A program made the position numbers and the translations under genes. The notes beneath the pieces are model-generated. The model saw only the letters and a list, made by a program, of their open reading frames with translations. It ran no database searches and had not been told where the DNA came from. From Ustulina deusta (taxonomy: Eukaryota; Ascomycota; Sordariomycetes; Xylariales; Xylariaceae), in assembly GCA_023159155.1 (NCBI GenBank), contig JAJNNX010000014.1, positions 372,001 to 436,000 of the forward strand: a stretch of DNA of 64,000 nt, given 5' to 3'. Of this stretch, positions 34,209-43,789 are shown piece after piece. Positions within the stretch are counted from its first letter, which is position 1, and each line of letters opens with the position of its first letter.

Positions 34209-34904
34209 CTATGTCTGGGGCATGATCTCAATCATGTTTCCATCCGGGTCGGCTGCGAAGATATATGTCTCCTGAGCAGAGGTCAGAACTGCGAAGATGG
34301 CGTCAAACTCCGCGGGGTCGATCTTAGATCGAATGAGATCAGTTGCAAACGCGTAGGGGCCACTCTCCGGGCTCGGCTCGCCGATCTTCTTGTAAATGGT
34401 CACGCCGAAGTCCTGTAGCCGCTTCTGGGTGTCCTGCGTATCTGGCACGACGAAGCCTGTCGAGCTAAAGGTGTTGGTGCTTTGGGTGGAGGCGGGAAAG
34501 TTGTTGTCGGGGACATCCAGGTATAGCAATTCCAAAAGGCCTTGGGTGTTACGCTGTTGCTGATACAGTTCCGCGGACGTCATGTAGCCAGTGCCGTTCT
34601 TTCCGGCGAAGCTGTAGCCTAGGTATGTACTCGAGAAGTGTTTAGTCACCTGGATTGTACTGATGATGCGCATACCAAAGACCTGGGTGTAAAAGTCGAG
34701 AGCCCGGGTGAGATTGTTGGTGTTGAACGCCACGTGGTTGAGCTGGTACTCAGTCGTCGCGGGGTCAGAGCCCTCGGGCCCCAGTATGATCTGAGGATAC
34801 TGGGTGCCGTTGCCACCAGCCCGGATGCCGCGTGGTATAAGACCCAACGCCGCGTTTAAACTCATCGCCAAGACGAAGAGAATGCGAGTGCTTGGTGCGA
34901 GCAT
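34209..34904 (-). CDS. Secreted VOC/glyoxalase-like protein
   Basis: Single exon, 231 residues. Residues 1-22 (MLAPSTRILFVLAMSLNAAL) look like a signal peptide. The rest is a vicinal-oxygen-chelate fold: LNHVAFNTNNLTRALDFYTQ with a metal-ligand His and the typical FGMRI turn, a middle ELLYLDVPDNNFP segment, and a C-terminal FAADPDGNMIEIMPQ with a putative metal-ligand Glu. Glyoxalase I, which uses glutathione hemithioacetals, is the nearest well-known member, but a secreted version would see little glutathione, so another substrate is likely. Several Asn-x-Ser/Thr sites fit the secretory route. It sits 1.3 kb from the RiPP locus; membership is only a possibility. Confidence 0.8.
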   Translation of the reverse strand: MLAPSTRILFVLAMSLNAALGLIPRGIRAGGNGTQYPQIILGPEGSDPATTEYQLNHVAFNTNNLTRALDFYTQVFGMRIISTIQVTKHFSSTYLGYSFAGKNGTGYMTSAELYQQQRNTQGLLELLYLDVPDNNFPASTQSTNTFSSTGFVVPDTQDTQKRLQDFGVTIYKKIGEPSPESGPYAFATDLIRSKIDPAEFDAIFAVLTSAQETYIFAADPDGNMIEIMPQT

Positions 34905-36186
34905 GGTGGCTACAAGCTCTCACCGAACTTTGCGTAATTGCCGGGCTTGGGTGAACCAAACGACCTTGGAGACACAATCAGATGGCAGTAGATAGAGCAC
35001 CTTGAAGTGAACTGAAACTGAAAAAATGTGGTGTGTCATACATCATCGAGACTCCGATTAATTGCCTTGCTAAGGGCTTTGATCGGGTTTTATGGCTACA
35101 AGAAGTGGTTTTGCCCGCATCCGAACCCCCCGGCCTGCAGTCACTCAGAACTCGTTCGCTTAATATCCACATGTTCCTACATAGTACTCCAAATGATCTG
35201 CAGTAAGATGCGACGTCGATGAGCGCTGAGCAATGCCTCTTCTACGCAGTAAGCCTTACCGAATGCCAGCTTCACTCGATATACCTAGGTAGTTCAGGCC
35301 AGCCGGACCCACCACTCGGAGAATAGGTGTGGCAAATGGTGCGGCACAGATCTGGTCGCCAGGACCTAGCGGGCAGGATCAAGTGCAGGGCCTCAGGCGG
35401 GAAGGGTCACTCATCCTCCCTGTAGGCTGTAGCCTGCAGCAGGGGTTTGCTCCAGTGACACTGGGTTCTGGAGATGTATGGAACACTCTGGTTTAGAACG
35501 GGATACTTCAGTATACAATAATCATGGTTATATTGGCTGAAGATACATTCCACACATATGCAGCCAGGAGGGTGAGCAGCCGCAGGCTGGTGCCGAAGCT
35601 CCAACTTCCAAGGCGCTCCCTCCTTGTCACCTTCGTTCGCGAAATGCGCCGTACGGTGCATCACGCTAAGCTCCAAAAAAGGGAGGCTCATTACCACAGT
35701 ACAACACGGAGATGGCATCTCTACATTCTATCCTTGACATCACCTTCTAGACGAGGCTGTGGTGGGGGGGGGGGGGGGGGGGAGGTGTCTTTTGCGTGAT
35801 TTGGCACTCTGATTCTTTCAAACCTACGACTATATTCGCTAAGTTGTCTCATCGCTTACTGGTAGGCTCTCTGATACCCTGTGCTCCCAGGGTCTCTTGT
35901 TCTACCAATGGCCAGTCACCTAAGCCTGTACTTTAATGCGCTTACGATGAGCTTGACAAGTGAAGATATTCGGGAATCAGATGGAGGAAAAACCAATACG
36001 AGTGATAATTATTAAGCCTTTCCAGAAGGACACTACATATACGTTTAGTTCAACTATAATAGTCGTTAAAATGAAGGGGGTACATGGCTTTGTTCCACTT
36101 GCAAAGAACAGCGATTCAAGTATTTACTCCATATCAACATCTGAGCCCCTGAACCCTTACGCAGAGATCGTTCGGTGTTTTCGGCT
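34905..36186. other. Spacer between the VOC gene and the UstY pair
   Basis: About 1.3 kb. It holds a 19-G run at 35764-35782. Open frames are short and unrecognised. Confidence 0.5.
35764..35782 (+). repeat. G19 homopolymer
   Basis: A run of 19 G, similar to those at 22732 and 44697. Confidence 0.85.
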
Positions 36187-37202
36187 TCATCGGTCTGTAT
36201 GTACTAGGCGAGCTAGAAACTCATCGATGCCAGTGTATTGAACAGTCCTTTTGTCTGCCCAAGCCTGAATGCTGTCCCAATTGGTGCATTTCCGGGCACC
36301 GGATCGATCTCCCTTGATCTTGTATTTGTTCTCCCAGAAGAACGTATTCACAGAAACATCTGCATTGCACATAATACCTTGGCGAAGAACCTCGAGGCAA
36401 TGATCTGTCAGCGTTTTAGCAAGAGACCACCAGCACGCAACTGAAGAAGGACACACCATGGTGCTTCAATGAGAAGGTCCCTATATCTCTCAATTCCGGG
36501 TAAGCGTCCTGGTGTTGGAATTGATACAACCTTTTCTAGTAGCTGTTAGCCTCTGATACTTCTTTGAGCGTTGGTCTTGACGAGTCTCCGAGCTTTGCAT
36601 CAAGCTCTGACATACCACACAATGGAGCATGTGATGAGCCTCAAGGTAGCCAAGGTAACCAGAACCGTCTTTCATGGAGATTGAAGTCTTGTTCATCCTT
36701 CTCATCTCTTCATCGGAAATCATGACCATTGTCGCTGTTTGGAATATAATCAGCATACTTATCAACGTACCAAAACCGATATCACACAATACTTACATCG
36801 TAATAAGCGTGACCAAGCCTGATCAAGCTCAGGACGGGGCTCGCCGATGAAGGGACTCGATTCGTACCCAAGTACCTCTACTCTGTATTGTATAGCAGAT
36901 TGTGCAGGTGCTAGAAGATCCCCTCGTTAGGGCCTGTATGCAGTTCATCACGAAACAAACTTACAAAACGCTGTTTCAAAAGTCGAATCATCAAACGGGC
37001 TGACTGGGAACACTTTATTCCACTTGTTGCCATTACTTAGAAACGCGAGATTCAAGATCAAGAGAACCAACTGAAAGACACAAAGTATACCATTCAGTTT
37101 GAAGAAATGGGCTCGTTTGGACCGGCTCCAGATATTGGGATTTGACTGAGTGATCTCATCTGTGGCCAAAAAAGGCTCATCTTCTGTGTCTCTTGTAGAC
37201 AT
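36187..37202 (-). CDS. UstYa-family (DUF3328) RiPP-modifying oxidase, copy A
   Basis: UstY proteins catalyse the oxidative cyclisation of fungal dikaritin RiPPs. Five exons on the minus strand: 36965-37202, 36797-36910, 36616-36734, 36457-36535 and 36187-36404, giving 255 residues. All phases (1,1,0,1) agree and all introns are GT-AG. One membrane helix lies near residues 38-58 (LNGILCVFQLVLLILNLAFL). The family's two HxxHC motifs are present: HMLHC at 152-156 and HHDHC at 182-186, the second straddling the exon 4/5 junction. The FSPAQSAIQYRVEV and GEPRPELDQAWSRLL segments are also family-typical. An in-frame ATG five codons upstream (37217) is an alternative start. It is divergent from a second UstY gene, sharing 931 bp of promoter. 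Confidence 0.92.
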
Positions 37203-38133
37203 GGCTTGCCACTTCACAGGCTATGATAATCGGAGATCTCGGCGGGAAAGACGAAGAGTCGGTACTGGGAGCTAAGACATAAAGGTTAGGCACAATATTG
37301 GTCTTCGAATTTCAGAAGAAACTATTCTCTTCTCTTATTAGTCATCAATATTATACCATACCCACTGCATATTCCACGCTGCGTAAGTAGTTATCACTCA
37401 TTCATCAATGCGCCACATATCCGGTGTAACTCCTTCCCAAACCTAGTTCATATCCTCCCGCAGACATTGCACATCTTCCAACAGTTGGAAACCTGTGCGA
37501 AAAGTGGGAGCAAGGGTGCCCAAGGGGGTTCCATAGCAGGAGTCTAAGGCCCGTTGTGAGCCCAAAGATGATGATGTGCGTGTCTCCTGCGTCCTACTGG
37601 CGGCCGAAAACCCAGGGAATGTGCCCTTGACTTACATGGGGACCATCTGATGCATCAGCTTATCTCTTATACAGACGGCCCTATTCTCCACGTCACACAG
37701 TGGTGCTCCGCCTCCAGAGATCAGGTTTTATATGGGTTTTCACTATAGTAACATTCGGATGCAATGGGGCGGCGGTTGATCACGGTGAACCAACAAAGCA
37801 CCATTGGTATGTCTGAGCCCCGCAATCATTGCAACCACGGCAATTGAAGTCTGCCTGTCGTGGTCTGAATTTTCTATGCAATATTGGAGAGGCAATGAGA
37901 TCAAGGGGGGTTCATTCCTCGCCGGGGCAACTGCCCAAGGAGACAACTTCTTCGCCCTTAAGCTAATTATTATCTGACAAATGCTCTTTCGAGCCTCTAC
38001 ACACCTGGTGGCTAGGCATATTTTCCTGCTATTCACGTTGATTGAATTTTTTACATCTTCGAAGCCTTATTCCCACAAGTAGCAAGAGTCGCATCACTCA
38101 GACACCCACATGATTCTGGTCTAAAGAGTTGCC
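37203..38133. promoter_or_regulatory. Shared divergent promoter of the two UstY genes
   Basis: 931 bp between the two divergent UstY starts. It probably co-regulates them. A short open frame on the minus strand (37743-38036) has no recognisable features. I could not identify a specific factor-binding motif with confidence. Confidence 0.5.
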
Positions 38134-39148
38134 ATGTCGAAAGACGAACAGATACCTTTTATTGACCGAGATCAAAATGGGTGCGACGAAAATCTTCAGA
38201 GCTCATTAGTCTCAAATCATGTTCCGAGAGAACAAAGTATTGCGTGGACTCCAGTTCAGAAGCTGTCTGTCGTTGCAAACTTCCTGCTGCTGAGCGTGGT
38301 CTTCTTCCTTGCAGCCACAATCGCTCTCCAGGCGTTGGGATCACGACAGAGGACCTGTGACGACGGTGTTTTTGAACCCTATTGTCCGTTTCACCTCAAT
38401 CTCAACATACTCCGGGAAGCTGACGCTTCTGGGCTTGCCCATATTAGCACCCGCGGCTGCTTCCATAGAATACCAGTACCGGGCCCTTATACCCAACGAT
38501 ACTCGCTTCACAGGTCATCCTGGACCAGAATGGGAGCGATCAATGCACGAGCTCATGGAAGGTGAGTCTCTTCTTTAATCAAACAACATTGCGCGGAATC
38601 TTATTACCAGGCTACTAGGTACCCTGATAAGAATATCTGAACACGAACTCAAGCAGTCCGGTTCCGATTCGATCCCACTGAAAGACGGAGGGTACGCAGC
38701 AGGACTGGGAGTCGGACATAATCTTCATTGTGTTGTACGTACAAGACCCTCTCCCACTCGAGATCAACTACTTCTCATCGTCATTGGCCCGCAGAAGAAG
38801 ATCAAACAGTTCCTGTATCGCGAACACTTCTATCCGAATTTGAGCGACAACAAAGATGAGTTCGATTACGTCCAGTCCCACGCAGGCAAGTGAAACTTCA
38901 TCTTTTGTGTTCCACGCTCGAAGCAACACTTTGTGATTGACAATTCACTAGATCACTGCCTAGACTTTCTCCGCCAAGCCATGCTGTGCCACCTAGACTA
39001 CTCTCTATACACGTTGTACTGGGGGGAAAGACGGCAGGACATTCCGACGCACCGGATTCCCGATGGACAGAAGTGTATAAATTGGGATAAGCTTCACTCA
39101 TGGATGCGTAGTAGAAGTGCCAACACAGACATGCTGTTGGGGCCCTGA
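38134..39148 (+). CDS. UstYa-family (DUF3328) RiPP-modifying oxidase, copy B
   Basis: Second UstY protein, also 255 residues. Exons 38134-38383, 38448-38561, 38619-38734, 38795-38885 and 38952-39148; junction phases 1,1,0,1 are identical to copy A. A membrane helix lies at about residues 50-68 (LSVVANFLLLSVVFFLAATI). HxxHC motifs are HNLHC at 155-159 and HADHC at 189-193. The consensus segments YSPAAASIEYQYR and TLIRISEHEL are seen. The first donor (GTCCGT) was chosen over an upstream GTGTTT because it yields the family-typical YSPA. The fourth intron (38886-38951) begins with GC in the context AG|GCAAGT, the standard GC-AG donor; no GT alternative keeps the HADHC motif in frame. Two UstY proteins acting together is usual for dikaritin clusters. 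Confidence 0.92.
38886..38951 (+). other. GC-AG intron within UstY copy B
   Basis: A 66-bp intron with donor AG|GCAAGT and acceptor CACTAG. It interrupts the codon for the Asp of HADHC. The nearest GT (GTGAAA, three bases on) would shift the frame. Confidence 0.75.
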
Positions 39149-40868
39149 TTGCAGCGGCAGATAAATACCTTGGGAAGCATCTCAACAGCCTTAGCATAAT
39201 GGAAAATTTTCTTTTTCTTTTGTGGTGTTCTCGTGTGTAAGCTGCTTCACAAGTAGGTATGTGAGACCATGAACGCAATTGCTCGGGAGAGTAGGATCCC
39301 AGCATTCCATTACGAACAAGACTAGGAGATGTAGTGTATGCATATGGGCGTGTAACTCCTCATACCTGCGAGTGTATTTGCAACAGCTGGCGAGCAGTGT
39401 TGAGCAGCTATGGTATCTACTACCTACCTAGGTATTAGGTACTTCGGCAAGTACCTCCCTCTAGGTAGCTGGACTGGTAGATTTACGTAGTACACATAGA
39501 GGCTCACAGCTGTTTGCAGATAGCCCGTGCGGTAGTGAGACTAACAGATAATGTGTCCCATTGATTGCACACCGCATAGACTCTCCTACTTCAAAAGAAT
39601 ATCTCTTGTTGGTCCCACTTCTGTCCGTTACCAGTTGGTCAACGGCAGGATTGAAGGATCGTTCGCACAGAACAGTTCAATCAACGTCAAACTCAACCAC
39701 CAAATCATTTAATGTGGCTCGGTGACACCTCCGGTTGCATGACCATTGCGTGTCGTTAATGGACCTGCACCGAAGCAAATCATCTACAATCCTGCTCGCC
39801 CGCTGGAAAAGGCGGTGTAGCCTTATGATCAAAATCCCCAGATGATTACCACCGAGCGAGGCCGAGGACATAAGAGGACGAAAAGAGTGTGCCTGCAGTC
39901 CACCGTCAACCGAAATTGCGAGGTATCGACGAGCAGTTATCGACACATCTGGAATAAGTTAATTCCCTCAAGCCATGGGCTGCCGTAGTCGAACAGGCCT
40001 ATCCGGATGCAGCAGAGTGAGTCTTTGCGGTGTGATTCTTGCATAAAATTCTCCCGCCGTCGTTTGTATCCTATGAAGTAGCGTCGCCACCGAAATGGGC
40101 TCGGCATGTCACCGGAAGATCATTCATGTGTGGTACTATGTTGCACATATAACATGATGCAGGTGCCTGGCACTAGGACCATCATCCCACCCATCAAAAC
40201 AAAGCGTCTAATCAATTCGCCGGGTTCGGGTCTGCTTGAGCCGTTTGAGGGTATTGTAATGCTTCGAAGTTGTACGCATACCTACGCCGCGCGTTGATGC
40301 CTTCCAACCCCCAGTCGGCAGTGGCGATGAACGAGGTAGCGGCACCAAACTCATACTTGTCTTCGACGAGGCTATTAGCATTGTACTCTGTCGGTTACAG
40401 CACGTCGACCTTGTTCACACCTTCTAGTGCGAATGATAATATGATGCATCCTTTGCTGTGCTCCCGAGATGGCCGAGTGCTCCGCCTCTCTTGGATCAAC
40501 AACAAGTCCTTCTGAAATCGGCTGAGGACTGCCACCCCATGATACGTCAATGCTGACAAGTAATCTCCTCGAGTGTTATGTATTCCCGGCCTAGGACTTC
40601 AAGCCTCCATCTTCGCGCTTATGTCGTATTCTGTCGAACAGGGAGACGATAGAGTTGTGACACATGCTTCATCTTGTGTGATCTTGCTCCGATAGTTAAG
40701 TCGTATTGGAGTGGGTGGCGCTAGACGGTTTACTTATATTATATTTTTACCAATTCCTATCTTTCAAGGCTGACGATTCATCAAGTTAAGATCAGAACTC
40801 AATCCGAACAAGTCTCCTCTGCACATACGAGTCCAATCTTACTCTCACGCTTGATCCATCGTTGCATC
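39149..40868. other. Spacer between UstY copy B and the precursor gene
   Basis: About 1.7 kb. Short frames such as 39677-39946 (minus) and fragments on the plus strand (near 39570-39710 and 40275-40430) look somewhat protein-like but carry stops and show no recognised motif. They may be remnants of a lost cluster gene. No intact gene is supported. The last 150 bp would be the precursor promoter. Confidence 0.45.
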
Positions 40869-41116
40869 ATGAGAATTTCGATCCTGAATCTTGTTTTTGC
40901 GGTTGCCGTGGTAGCAATGCCCTCAGTTCTTGGTACGAAGCCAAGTTTCAGTGCTTTTCCCTCTGAAAGCTGTCGATTGCTCATACTCTACTAGGACAAC
41001 TCAAGTCTGGCGACGATGTCGAACGGCGCGACGGCACCACCGAGTTCGATCCTGACTTCGCCCTGAAGCACAAACGCGACGGTACGACAGAGTTCGACCC
41101 CGATTTTGCTCTGTAA
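40869..41116 (+). CDS. Kexin-processed RiPP precursor with two identical cores (dikaritin type)
   Basis: Two exons (40869-40932 and 40995-41116) separated by a 62-bp intron (donor GTACGA, acceptor CTACTAG) encode 61 residues. Residues 1-22 are a signal peptide (MRISILNLVFAVAVVAMPSV). A short leader ends in the dibasic ERR at 31-33; residues 34-45 are DGTTEFDPDFAL; KHKR at 46-49 is a second kexin site; residues 50-61 repeat DGTTEFDPDFAL exactly and end the protein. This is the layout of ustiloxin- and phomopsin-type precursors: secretory leader and tandem cores released by kexin. Two UstY oxidases lie just upstream. The core has two Phe and no Tyr, so a Phe-based crosslink is the natural guess. 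An alpha-pheromone precursor is the main alternative, but the WCxxxGxxCW-type core is absent. The mature product is unknown. Confidence 0.85.
41030..41113 (+). repeat. Tandem core-peptide repeat in the RiPP precursor
   Basis: Two 36-bp units (41030-41065 and 41078-41113) separated by 12 bp coding KHKR. They encode the same 12 residues but differ at the third base of 8 of 12 codons, with no amino-acid change. Confidence 0.95.
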
Positions 41117-42471: not shown

Positions 42472-43789
42472 ATGTCTCAACCCATTCGCATCGCCATCTC
42501 AGGCGGCGGCCTAGCCGGCGCCTCTCTGATGCAAGCTCTTCTCCAATACCCTCATCTTGATGTTCATGTTTTCGAGTCTGCGCCGGCCTTTAAAGAAGCT
42601 GGCCTAGCCATCGGTGTTACCCGCAATGCCCAGGCTGCGCTGGACCTCATCGGCCCGCCGGCCCCTCAGCTTCTGAAGCGCGCCGGAGCCGTTCCTATGC
42701 AAGGCGTGCGCTTCATGATCGCCGAGGGTGAGGGCGTCGGACAAGTCATCAATGAAGTTGACAACAGCAAGGGCACACGCCTTACGAGTATCATCCATCG
42801 CGCGGCATACTTGCAGCAATTGCTAGCTGATGTGCCAGAGGATCGCTTGCACTCCTCTAAAAAGCTCGAAGGGATCAGTCACAACGCCAACGGCGTGACG
42901 CTGCGCTTTGCCGATGGGACCAATCACGACTGCGACATCCTTGTCGGTGCTGACGGCATCCACAGCACCGTGCGAAAGTTCGTGCTCGGTGAAGACGACC
43001 CCGCGGCGCACCCAAGGAACACCGGCCTCTGGATCGTCATGACCCTTCAGCCCTACGACAAAGCCAAGGCCAGCTTAGGGGAAGGACTTGTCAACTCGAA
43101 CGACGCCCGCGAGTATTCGTGGGTCGGGGACGGGACCTATATCCTTCACAATGTTCTCAGCGACGGGCAGCTAGTTCAGTTTGTCATTGGGTCGAGCGAC
43201 GACGAGTTGTCAGACCAATGGCGCCGAACTGTCAGCGCCGATGAAATTAAGAAGCTGTACGCAGGCTGGCCAATAGAGCTTCGGAAGGCGGTGGACGAGG
43301 TAAAGTCCCCTGATACAGAGTCATCATGATTGCTACTAACAATGTGAGTAGCTGCTTTGCCAAGACCCTGAGCAGAATGGCATATACCTTTGGGAGCACC
43401 CTCCCGCCCGAACCTACGTTTCTGGGCCCCTCTGTGTAATGGGTGACGCTGCGCATGCCACGACCCCTTGGCATGGTTCTGGTGGAGGCATGTCCATTGA
43501 GGATAGCCTCATTCTCTCTACTCTACTAGGACGCGCAAAGACTCCCATTGAAGCTCGAGCTGCTCTAAAGGCGTACGATCATGTGCGCCGGCCCCGCACC
43601 CAACGCATTGTCGAGTCAAGTCGGGAGACGGGTATGATGCTGCTTGGTAAGGCAGGACAGACTGGGATGGAAATGAAGGTGGCGGGAAATTTGCTGCCTA
43701 GATGGGACTTCATTCTAGACCTTGACATGCTAGAACATCGTAACGAGGCGATACAGAAGATGTTGGACGAGCTGGCCGTCTCGGCTTAG
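42472..43789 (+). CDS. FAD-dependent monooxygenase (salicylate hydroxylase-like)
   Basis: Class A flavoprotein hydroxylase. Exons 42472-43299 and 43352-43789 give 421 residues; the 52-bp intron has a TACTAAC branch and joins AVDE to LLCQDPEQNG. The N-terminal dinucleotide-binding motif is ISGGGLAGASL, the DG motif is ILVGADGIHS at about residue 160, and the GD motif is VMGDAAHATTPWHGSGGG, which contacts the FAD ribityl chain. It has no membrane segment or signal peptide. The substrate is unknown. Flavin monooxygenases occur in ustiloxin-type clusters, so a tailoring role for the nearby RiPP is possible; independent aromatic degradation is equally consistent with the sequence. Confidence 0.88.

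Follow-up and report, generated by a model that had tools for sequence, protein, structure and literature searches.

Gene content of the locus

A small candidate biosynthetic locus, located in a 64,000-nucleotide stretch of the genome of the wood-rotting fungus Ustulina deusta (Xylariaceae, Xylariales; contig JAJNNX010000014.1, positions 372,001 to 436,000; hereafter the window), combines two divergent genes for proteins of the UstYa/DUF3328 family, here UstY-A and UstY-B, with a short gene for a precursor peptide that carries the same core twice. The window belongs to contig C30 of a 56 Mb assembly. In window coordinates, the features of the locus are as follows.

36187..37202, minus strand: UstY-A gene, 255 amino acids (aa), UstYa/DUF3328, motifs HMLHC and HHDHC
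37202-36965, 36910-36797, 36734-36616, 36535-36457 and 36404-36187, minus strand: the five exons of UstY-A
37203..38133: intergenic region between the divergent UstY-A and UstY-B genes, 931 bases
38134..39148, plus strand: UstY-B gene, 255 aa, UstYa/DUF3328, motifs HNLHC and HADHC
38134-38383, 38448-38561, 38619-38734, 38795-38885 and 38952-39148, plus strand: the five exons of UstY-B
40869..41116, plus strand: precursor peptide gene, 61 aa, exons 40869-40932 and 40995-41116
40869..40932, plus strand: precursor exon 1, hydrophobic secretory leader MRISILNLVFAVAVVAMPSVL(G)
41030..41065, plus strand: core unit 1, DGTTEFDPDFAL, behind RR and followed by KHKR
41078..41113, plus strand: core unit 2, DGTTEFDPDFAL, behind KR, with the stop codon next

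The precursor and its repeated core

The two precursor exons are parted by a 62-nt GT-AG intron, and the spliced product is identical to the public U. deusta protein P0001. It reads as a hydrophobic leader, a short spacer ending in RR, DGTTEFDPDFAL, KHKR, a second DGTTEFDPDFAL and the stop; the leader was called from a hydropathy maximum of 2.36 over 19 residues. Splice model and public protein thus bear out the 61-residue secretory precursor, with two identical cores behind RR and KR, that an earlier note on this DNA had described. The kexin-type architecture that the note had proposed also holds at the level of sequence: as repeats parted by Kex2 sites in a predicted secreted protein, the precursor counts as a Kex2-processed repeat protein (KEP).

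The two units differ at 8 of 36 bases, all eight at third positions and all synonymous, and none of 200,000 simulated random sets of eight changes kept the peptide. From these two results together, we read the pattern as purifying selection acting on the core peptide. A scan of open frames for units repeated behind dibasic sites, with the leader outside its criteria, matched only the precursor frame in the 64 kb; 20 versions of the window shuffled in three-base blocks gave no match, these and the rest of the window serving as the control away from UstY genes. A search of the U. deusta genome with the precursor returned no second match at E up to 10.

None of the searchable main texts, a body of literature that misses most subscription papers and supplements, contains TTEFDPDF, GTTEFDPD or EFDPDF. 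Within that scope, the core is indeed unrecognised among described dikaritins, as the note had it; supplementary files of PMC7329392 or PMC6339444, or Nagano et al. 2016, may already contain the unit.

The UstY-A and UstY-B genes

Both UstY models are intact. Their start codons, at 37202 (minus) and 38134 (plus), are spaced 932 bases apart, and the 931 bases between the genes are probably a shared promoter region. UstY-A agrees with the public U. deusta protein P0057 at 254 of 255 residues, with one difference, and UstY-B equals the public protein P0015 without any. UstY-B has two unusual splice sites, the donor GTCCGT of intron 1 (38384-38447) and a GC-AG last intron (38886-38951) that starts with GC instead of GT; the model that uses them gives exactly P0015. 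The public proteins score 144.3 bits (P0057) and 130.6 bits (P0015) against Pfam UstYa (PF11807; cut-off 25), and the window DNA itself passes the cut-off exon by exon. Hydropathy analysis found one strongly hydrophobic stretch per protein, at about residues 31-58 of UstY-A and 40-70 of UstY-B. Gene models, profile scores and public proteins therefore agree on two complete divergent DUF3328 genes with two HxxHC motifs each, and the hydrophobic stretches match the membrane helix that had been claimed for both.

UstY-A and UstY-B are 36% identical over 174 residues, and they share 21-40% identity with the other UstY loci of their own genome (matches longer than 100 residues), so that the pair does not stem from a recent duplication. 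A sequence search of the PDB found no UstY relative, the best E-values of 0.3 and 0.18 being those of chance matches. In AlphaFold models of low-to-moderate confidence, each HxxHC motif of both proteins sits in a helix, which fits the published model of the cyclochlorotine hydroxylase CctR and supports nothing beyond that.

Relatives of the precursor

Among 21 candidates from a database search, 14 proteins, U. deusta's own included, reached E up to 10 and were taken as precursor relatives; thirteen have E-values of 1.7e-8 or better and the fourteenth 0.016. They come from Ustulina, Astrocystis, Poronia, Xylaria flabelliformis, Xylariaceae FL0255, Triangularia, Monosporascus, Paecilomyces lecythidis, P. 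variotii, Biscogniauxia and Xylaria castorea, with three metagenomic proteins. The search relies on exact shared words, and relatives with divergent cores would be missed.

The 14 proteins contain 32 units that fit the pattern used for counting, after two degenerate units (the second of P0010 and the third of P0003) had been left out. This pattern fixes D1, G2, T4 and F6, whose invariance in the 32 units is by construction. At the free positions, Pro occupies position 8 in 28 units and Asp position 9 in 29; at position 10, 30 units have Phe and 2 have Tyr, and position 12 is split between Leu (17) and Phe (15). KR or RR precedes 28 of the 32, and the linkers between units differ among relatives. 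The Xylaria relatives, Triangularia and Paecilomyces represent three orders in two classes. The unit is nearly unchanged across them.

In three relatives, P0005 (Xylariaceae FL0255), P0010 (Biscogniauxia) and P0013 (Xylaria castorea), units are altered or dibasic sites have been lost. These three fungi have no UstY-A or UstY-B match so named among the 42 clusters listed for each protein, an absence that is weak since the lists go to E up to 1e-20 and give one name per cluster. Decay following enzyme loss is a possible explanation of their precursors. We also compared intact precursors, 7 of 9 assignable ones having a UstY match in the same species or contig, with altered ones, 0 of 3 (Fisher p 0.045). 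The grouping was post hoc, it classed Poronia, Triangularia, P. variotii and P0006 as intact despite some changed units, and p becomes 0.19 when P0011 and P0014 are counted as lacking a match; the test was given no weight.

Linkage and joint variation

Proteins were assigned to the same contig when their recorded contig sizes matched, a proxy in which gene order is not read. By this proxy, the precursor lies with both UstY proteins in Xylaria flabelliformis (265,646 bases) and on an 11,706-base metagenome contig, with UstY-A in Astrocystis sublimbata (55,838) and Paecilomyces variotii No. 5 (124,012), and with UstY-B in Ustulina itself (1,047,090). Among 42 hits for each protein, UstY-A and UstY-B are co-located in 15 pairs; these come from 14 assemblies, with two pairs in Nemania abortiva.

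Trees were built from 24 of the 42 UstY-B hits and 30 of the 42 UstY-A hits. Both trees recover four groups with good support: Triangularia plus Podospora, the two Nemania (FL0916 and N. abortiva), Hypomontagnella plus Annulohypoxylon moriforme, and P. variotii plus A. steynii. The UstY-B tree firmly unites Ustulina, X. flabelliformis, Poronia and Bombardia, and in the UstY-A tree these four group, less firmly, together with Astrocystis. Shared contigs and shared groups thus indicate that UstY-A and UstY-B mostly travel and vary together, which suggests that the two proteins act jointly.

Taken together, the intact models, the precursor relatives, the shared contigs in four other assemblies and the 15 UstY pairs lead us to regard the trio, on comparative sequence evidence, as a real and conserved unit. 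The earlier view that the three genes belong together therefore appears sound, given the co-location by proxy in other fungi and the joint variation of the UstY pair.

Neighbouring genes

Two neighbours adjoin the trio directly:

42472..43789, plus strand: FAD-dependent monooxygenase, adjoining the precursor gene; exon limits approximate
34209..34904, minus strand: glyoxalase/VOC-fold protein with a hydrophobic N-terminus, adjoining UstY-A; PF00903 46.5 bits (cut-off 20.6)

The two open frames of the monooxygenase gene scored 18.7 bits, below the cut-off of 22, and 44.6 bits against FAD_binding_3. It could be a tailoring enzyme, and the glyoxalase-fold gene could be an accessory gene; both roles are possible but unproven, and these two are the only neighbours that look like plausible accessories. 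A run of 19 G (35764-35782) stands between the glyoxalase-fold gene and UstY-A. In a Pfam search that covered long open frames, one flank holds the glyoxalase-fold protein, synaptobrevin and a short-chain dehydrogenase, and the precursor side holds the FAD monooxygenase, a fungal-rhodopsin-domain protein and an amino-acid-permease fragment that begins 9.5 kb past the precursor. Farther out lie Npa1, Eap1, Sec1, a G-patch protein, a protein kinase, an S1/P1 nuclease and a DHHA2-domain protein. No methyltransferase was found among the 22 proteins and frames scanned with Pfam (3 + 10 + 9), short exons and many smaller frames being unscanned. No S41 peptidase lies on contig C30 among the 5 genome matches listed.

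Other UstY loci of the genome

The U. deusta genome holds at least 45 UstYa matches when counted exon by exon, in about 26 loci including that of UstY-A and UstY-B. We read 9.9 kb at each of 20 further UstY loci, and the repeat scan found repeat precursors with different units at nine of them (L003, L004, L005, L007, L009, L010, L011, L013 and L016); two rows of the scan, one at L011 and one at L013, are the wrong reading frame of another row. The units include PWPLYVAKDA, VDVPNYSNSYLD, NWNEAAWSNFVKSYVDGAEQV, DADTAYTKEVSD and DIDVADAF; several units of these loci contain Tyr or Trp, and DIDVADAF contains neither. By eye, the DADTAYTKEVSD unit resembles the conserved motif DADAATXYV[A/V]D reported in PMC6339444. 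The genome thus has at least ten such loci, and the one with the TTEFDPDF core is of an ordinary kind, not a singular case.

One further locus of this genome, L015 (C13:71000-80900), has tyrosinase matches (C13:74403-74465 and 74945-75145) flanked by two UstY matches, and has the look of a classical locus of the ustiloxin/phomopsin type. The repeat scan gave no precursor match there.

Proposed pathway and alternatives

On sequence grounds, the gene trio probably makes a short, enzymatically modified secreted peptide. We consider it fairly probable that this is a minimal RiPP locus, in which the UstY pair oxidises Kex2-released DGTTEFDPDFAL, most likely into a macrocycle, before secretion. The precursor would enter the secretory pathway, where the Golgi protease Kex2 would cut behind RR and KR to give two copies of DGTTEFDPDFAL, the first freed after trimming of its KHKR tail. 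UstY-A and UstY-B, putative dicopper oxidases anchored in the membrane, would work together, possibly as a heterodimer, on C-H bonds around F6, the aromatic residue 10 and the C-terminal L/F. A macrocycle through F6, residue 10 or residue 12 would be the most likely outcome, and the modified product would then leave the cell. Kex2 cleavage, copper chemistry, UstY pairing, cyclisation and the residues involved are steps that we infer. CctR is described as dimeric, membrane-anchored and O2-dependent, with two coppers per monomer, a need for its HxxHC residues and a catalytic part predicted to be luminal (PMC12435403). For ustiloxin, a Kex2 fragment of 13 to 14 residues is proposed to be cut further (PMC6514808), and the mature compound here may likewise be only part of the 12-mer.

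As the core lacks Tyr, classical Tyr-ether chemistry cannot apply as such. Such cores are a minority but not rare, since Tyr is reported in 65.6% of the repeated sequences beside DUF3328 genes (PMC7329392). Victorin, cyclised from a C-terminal Phe to an internal Leu (PMC9233826), provides a precedent for Phe-based rings, and the exchange of Phe and Tyr at position 10 among the relatives speaks against a phenol-oxygen link there. By analogy, the modification could be a Phe- or Leu-based crosslink or a hydroxylation or halogenation.

Several observations count against the minimal RiPP locus as proposed. Neither unit in the window contains Tyr, and the AlphaFold models of the UstY proteins reach a mean predicted local distance difference test (pLDDT) of 65.0 and 61.1, a low-to-moderate confidence. 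Linkage is also incomplete: precursor and UstY genes are on different contigs in Poronia (87,704 vs 16,587 bases) and Triangularia (274,356 vs 108,630), no UstY-A or UstY-B match is co-located by proxy with seven further precursors, six of them on contigs above 80 kb and the other on a 1.1-kb fragment, and the Astrocystis UstY-B is separated by contig from its UstY-A and precursor and takes another place in the tree.

The UstY pair might instead hydroxylate, halogenate or desaturate the unit and leave the product linear. The Tyr-free units would suit this outcome, as would the range of chemistry in the family, which spans hydroxylation by CctR and, as cited for enzymes with similar requirements, halogenation by ApnU and cyclisation by AprY (PMC12435403). 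For the same reasons, the statement that the locus makes a cyclic peptide was too firm as it had been made. However, DUF3328 proteins are called indispensable for the cyclisation of ustiloxin, asperipin-2a and phomopsin (PMC7329392), and victorin contains a Phe-Leu crosslink (PMC9233826); we regard a linear modified product as unlikely. More improbable still is a linear peptide, secreted as a signal or pheromone-like, that is made from the precursor while the adjacent UstY pair serves another substrate. The separate contigs of Poronia and Triangularia would agree with this, and 6120 of 7878 Kex2-repeat precursors (78%) are reported without a DUF3328 neighbour (PMC7329392). The remaining 22% have DUF3328 genes within 15 genes, an enrichment that peaks at the next gene, whereas nearly all mating-factor and pheromone precursors lack such neighbours, according to the same study; the shared contigs of precursor and UstY genes in four other assemblies likewise argue for a common role. 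That the locus is silent or decaying and makes no product seems very improbable: the altered precursors of FL0255, Biscogniauxia and X. castorea speak for it, but the three U. deusta genes are intact and agree with public proteins, and the units have stayed identical through eight synonymous changes.

A bolder version of the minimal RiPP locus, doubtful as a whole and offered as a tentative extension, would make it part of a RiPP family that does without Tyr and reaches across at least two ascomycete classes, with an obligate UstY-A/UstY-B heterodimer, a Phe-based (or Phe-to-Leu) crosslink, and a near-constant acidic peptide kept for one conserved target instead of diversifying as a toxin would. 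Since the unit is nearly constant across distant fungi and the two oxidases vary together, the locus offers a small three-gene system for asking what a UstY pair does to a Tyr-free core and whether two UstY proteins form one enzyme. Furthermore, natural variants (F/Y at position 10, L/F at 12, replacement of P8) can inform which residues are modified.

Comparison with known systems

The kind of locus is already known. A current definition of dikaritins takes the DUF3328 protein as the class-defining enzyme (PMC12048977), and both UstY proteins, with two HxxHC motifs each, belong by it; the precursor likewise has a leader, called by hydropathy, and repeated cores. The older five-gene definition of Ding et al., as cited in PMC12048977, adds a tyrosinase, a methyltransferase, and transporters or peptidases. 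The locus thus fits the current enzyme-based definition and fails the older one on tyrosinase, none of which lies on contig C30 among the 23 genome matches listed (E up to 0.001). Any dikaritin would also have a side-chain macrocycle in its product, here a predicted one. The claim that a UstY pair and a precursor by themselves define the ustiloxin, phomopsin, asperipin, epichloecyclin and victorin classes is not borne out. An ustiloxin-like putative RiPP cluster is reported from Hypomontagnella, Hypoxylon rubiginosum and H. pulicicidum (PMC8403587); UstY-B matches include Hypomontagnella and H. rubiginosum, and a related pair may already be in print.

With ustiloxin and phomopsin, the locus shares several UstY proteins and a repeat precursor. 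These compounds crosslink Tyr to Ile (PMC9233826, PMC6514808), whereas the locus has a Tyr-free core and no tyrosinase or S41 peptidase match listed on its contig; even among the relatives, the Tyr on which ustiloxin, phomopsin and asperipin ether chemistry depends occurs in only 2 of 32 units, at position 10. Asperipin-2a resembles the locus in its very small cluster, with tyrosinase not among the four genes named for it (PMC6514808), but has one UstY gene instead of two and a core, FYYTGY, in which Tyr is crosslinked.

CctR has the same layout of cytosolic tail, membrane helix and two HxxHC motifs (PMC12435403), but is a homodimer that hydroxylates a non-ribosomal peptide. Victorin, likened here by its described chemistry, has a Tyr-free crosslink, and the locus unit, which ends in L or F, could carry a similar one; victorin differs in being described as a chlorinated host-selective toxin. 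Most Kex2-repeat precursor types are reported as confined to a single genus (PMC7329392). Type G-6 of that study, from Monosporascus, Hypoxylon, Aspergillus and others, mostly accompanied by DUF3328 and containing Tyr and several Asp, could by its description be kin to the locus unit. In architecture, the locus resembles KEPs accompanied by DUF3328 genes, with which it shares a secretory leader, repeats flanked by dibasic sites and DUF3328 within a few genes.

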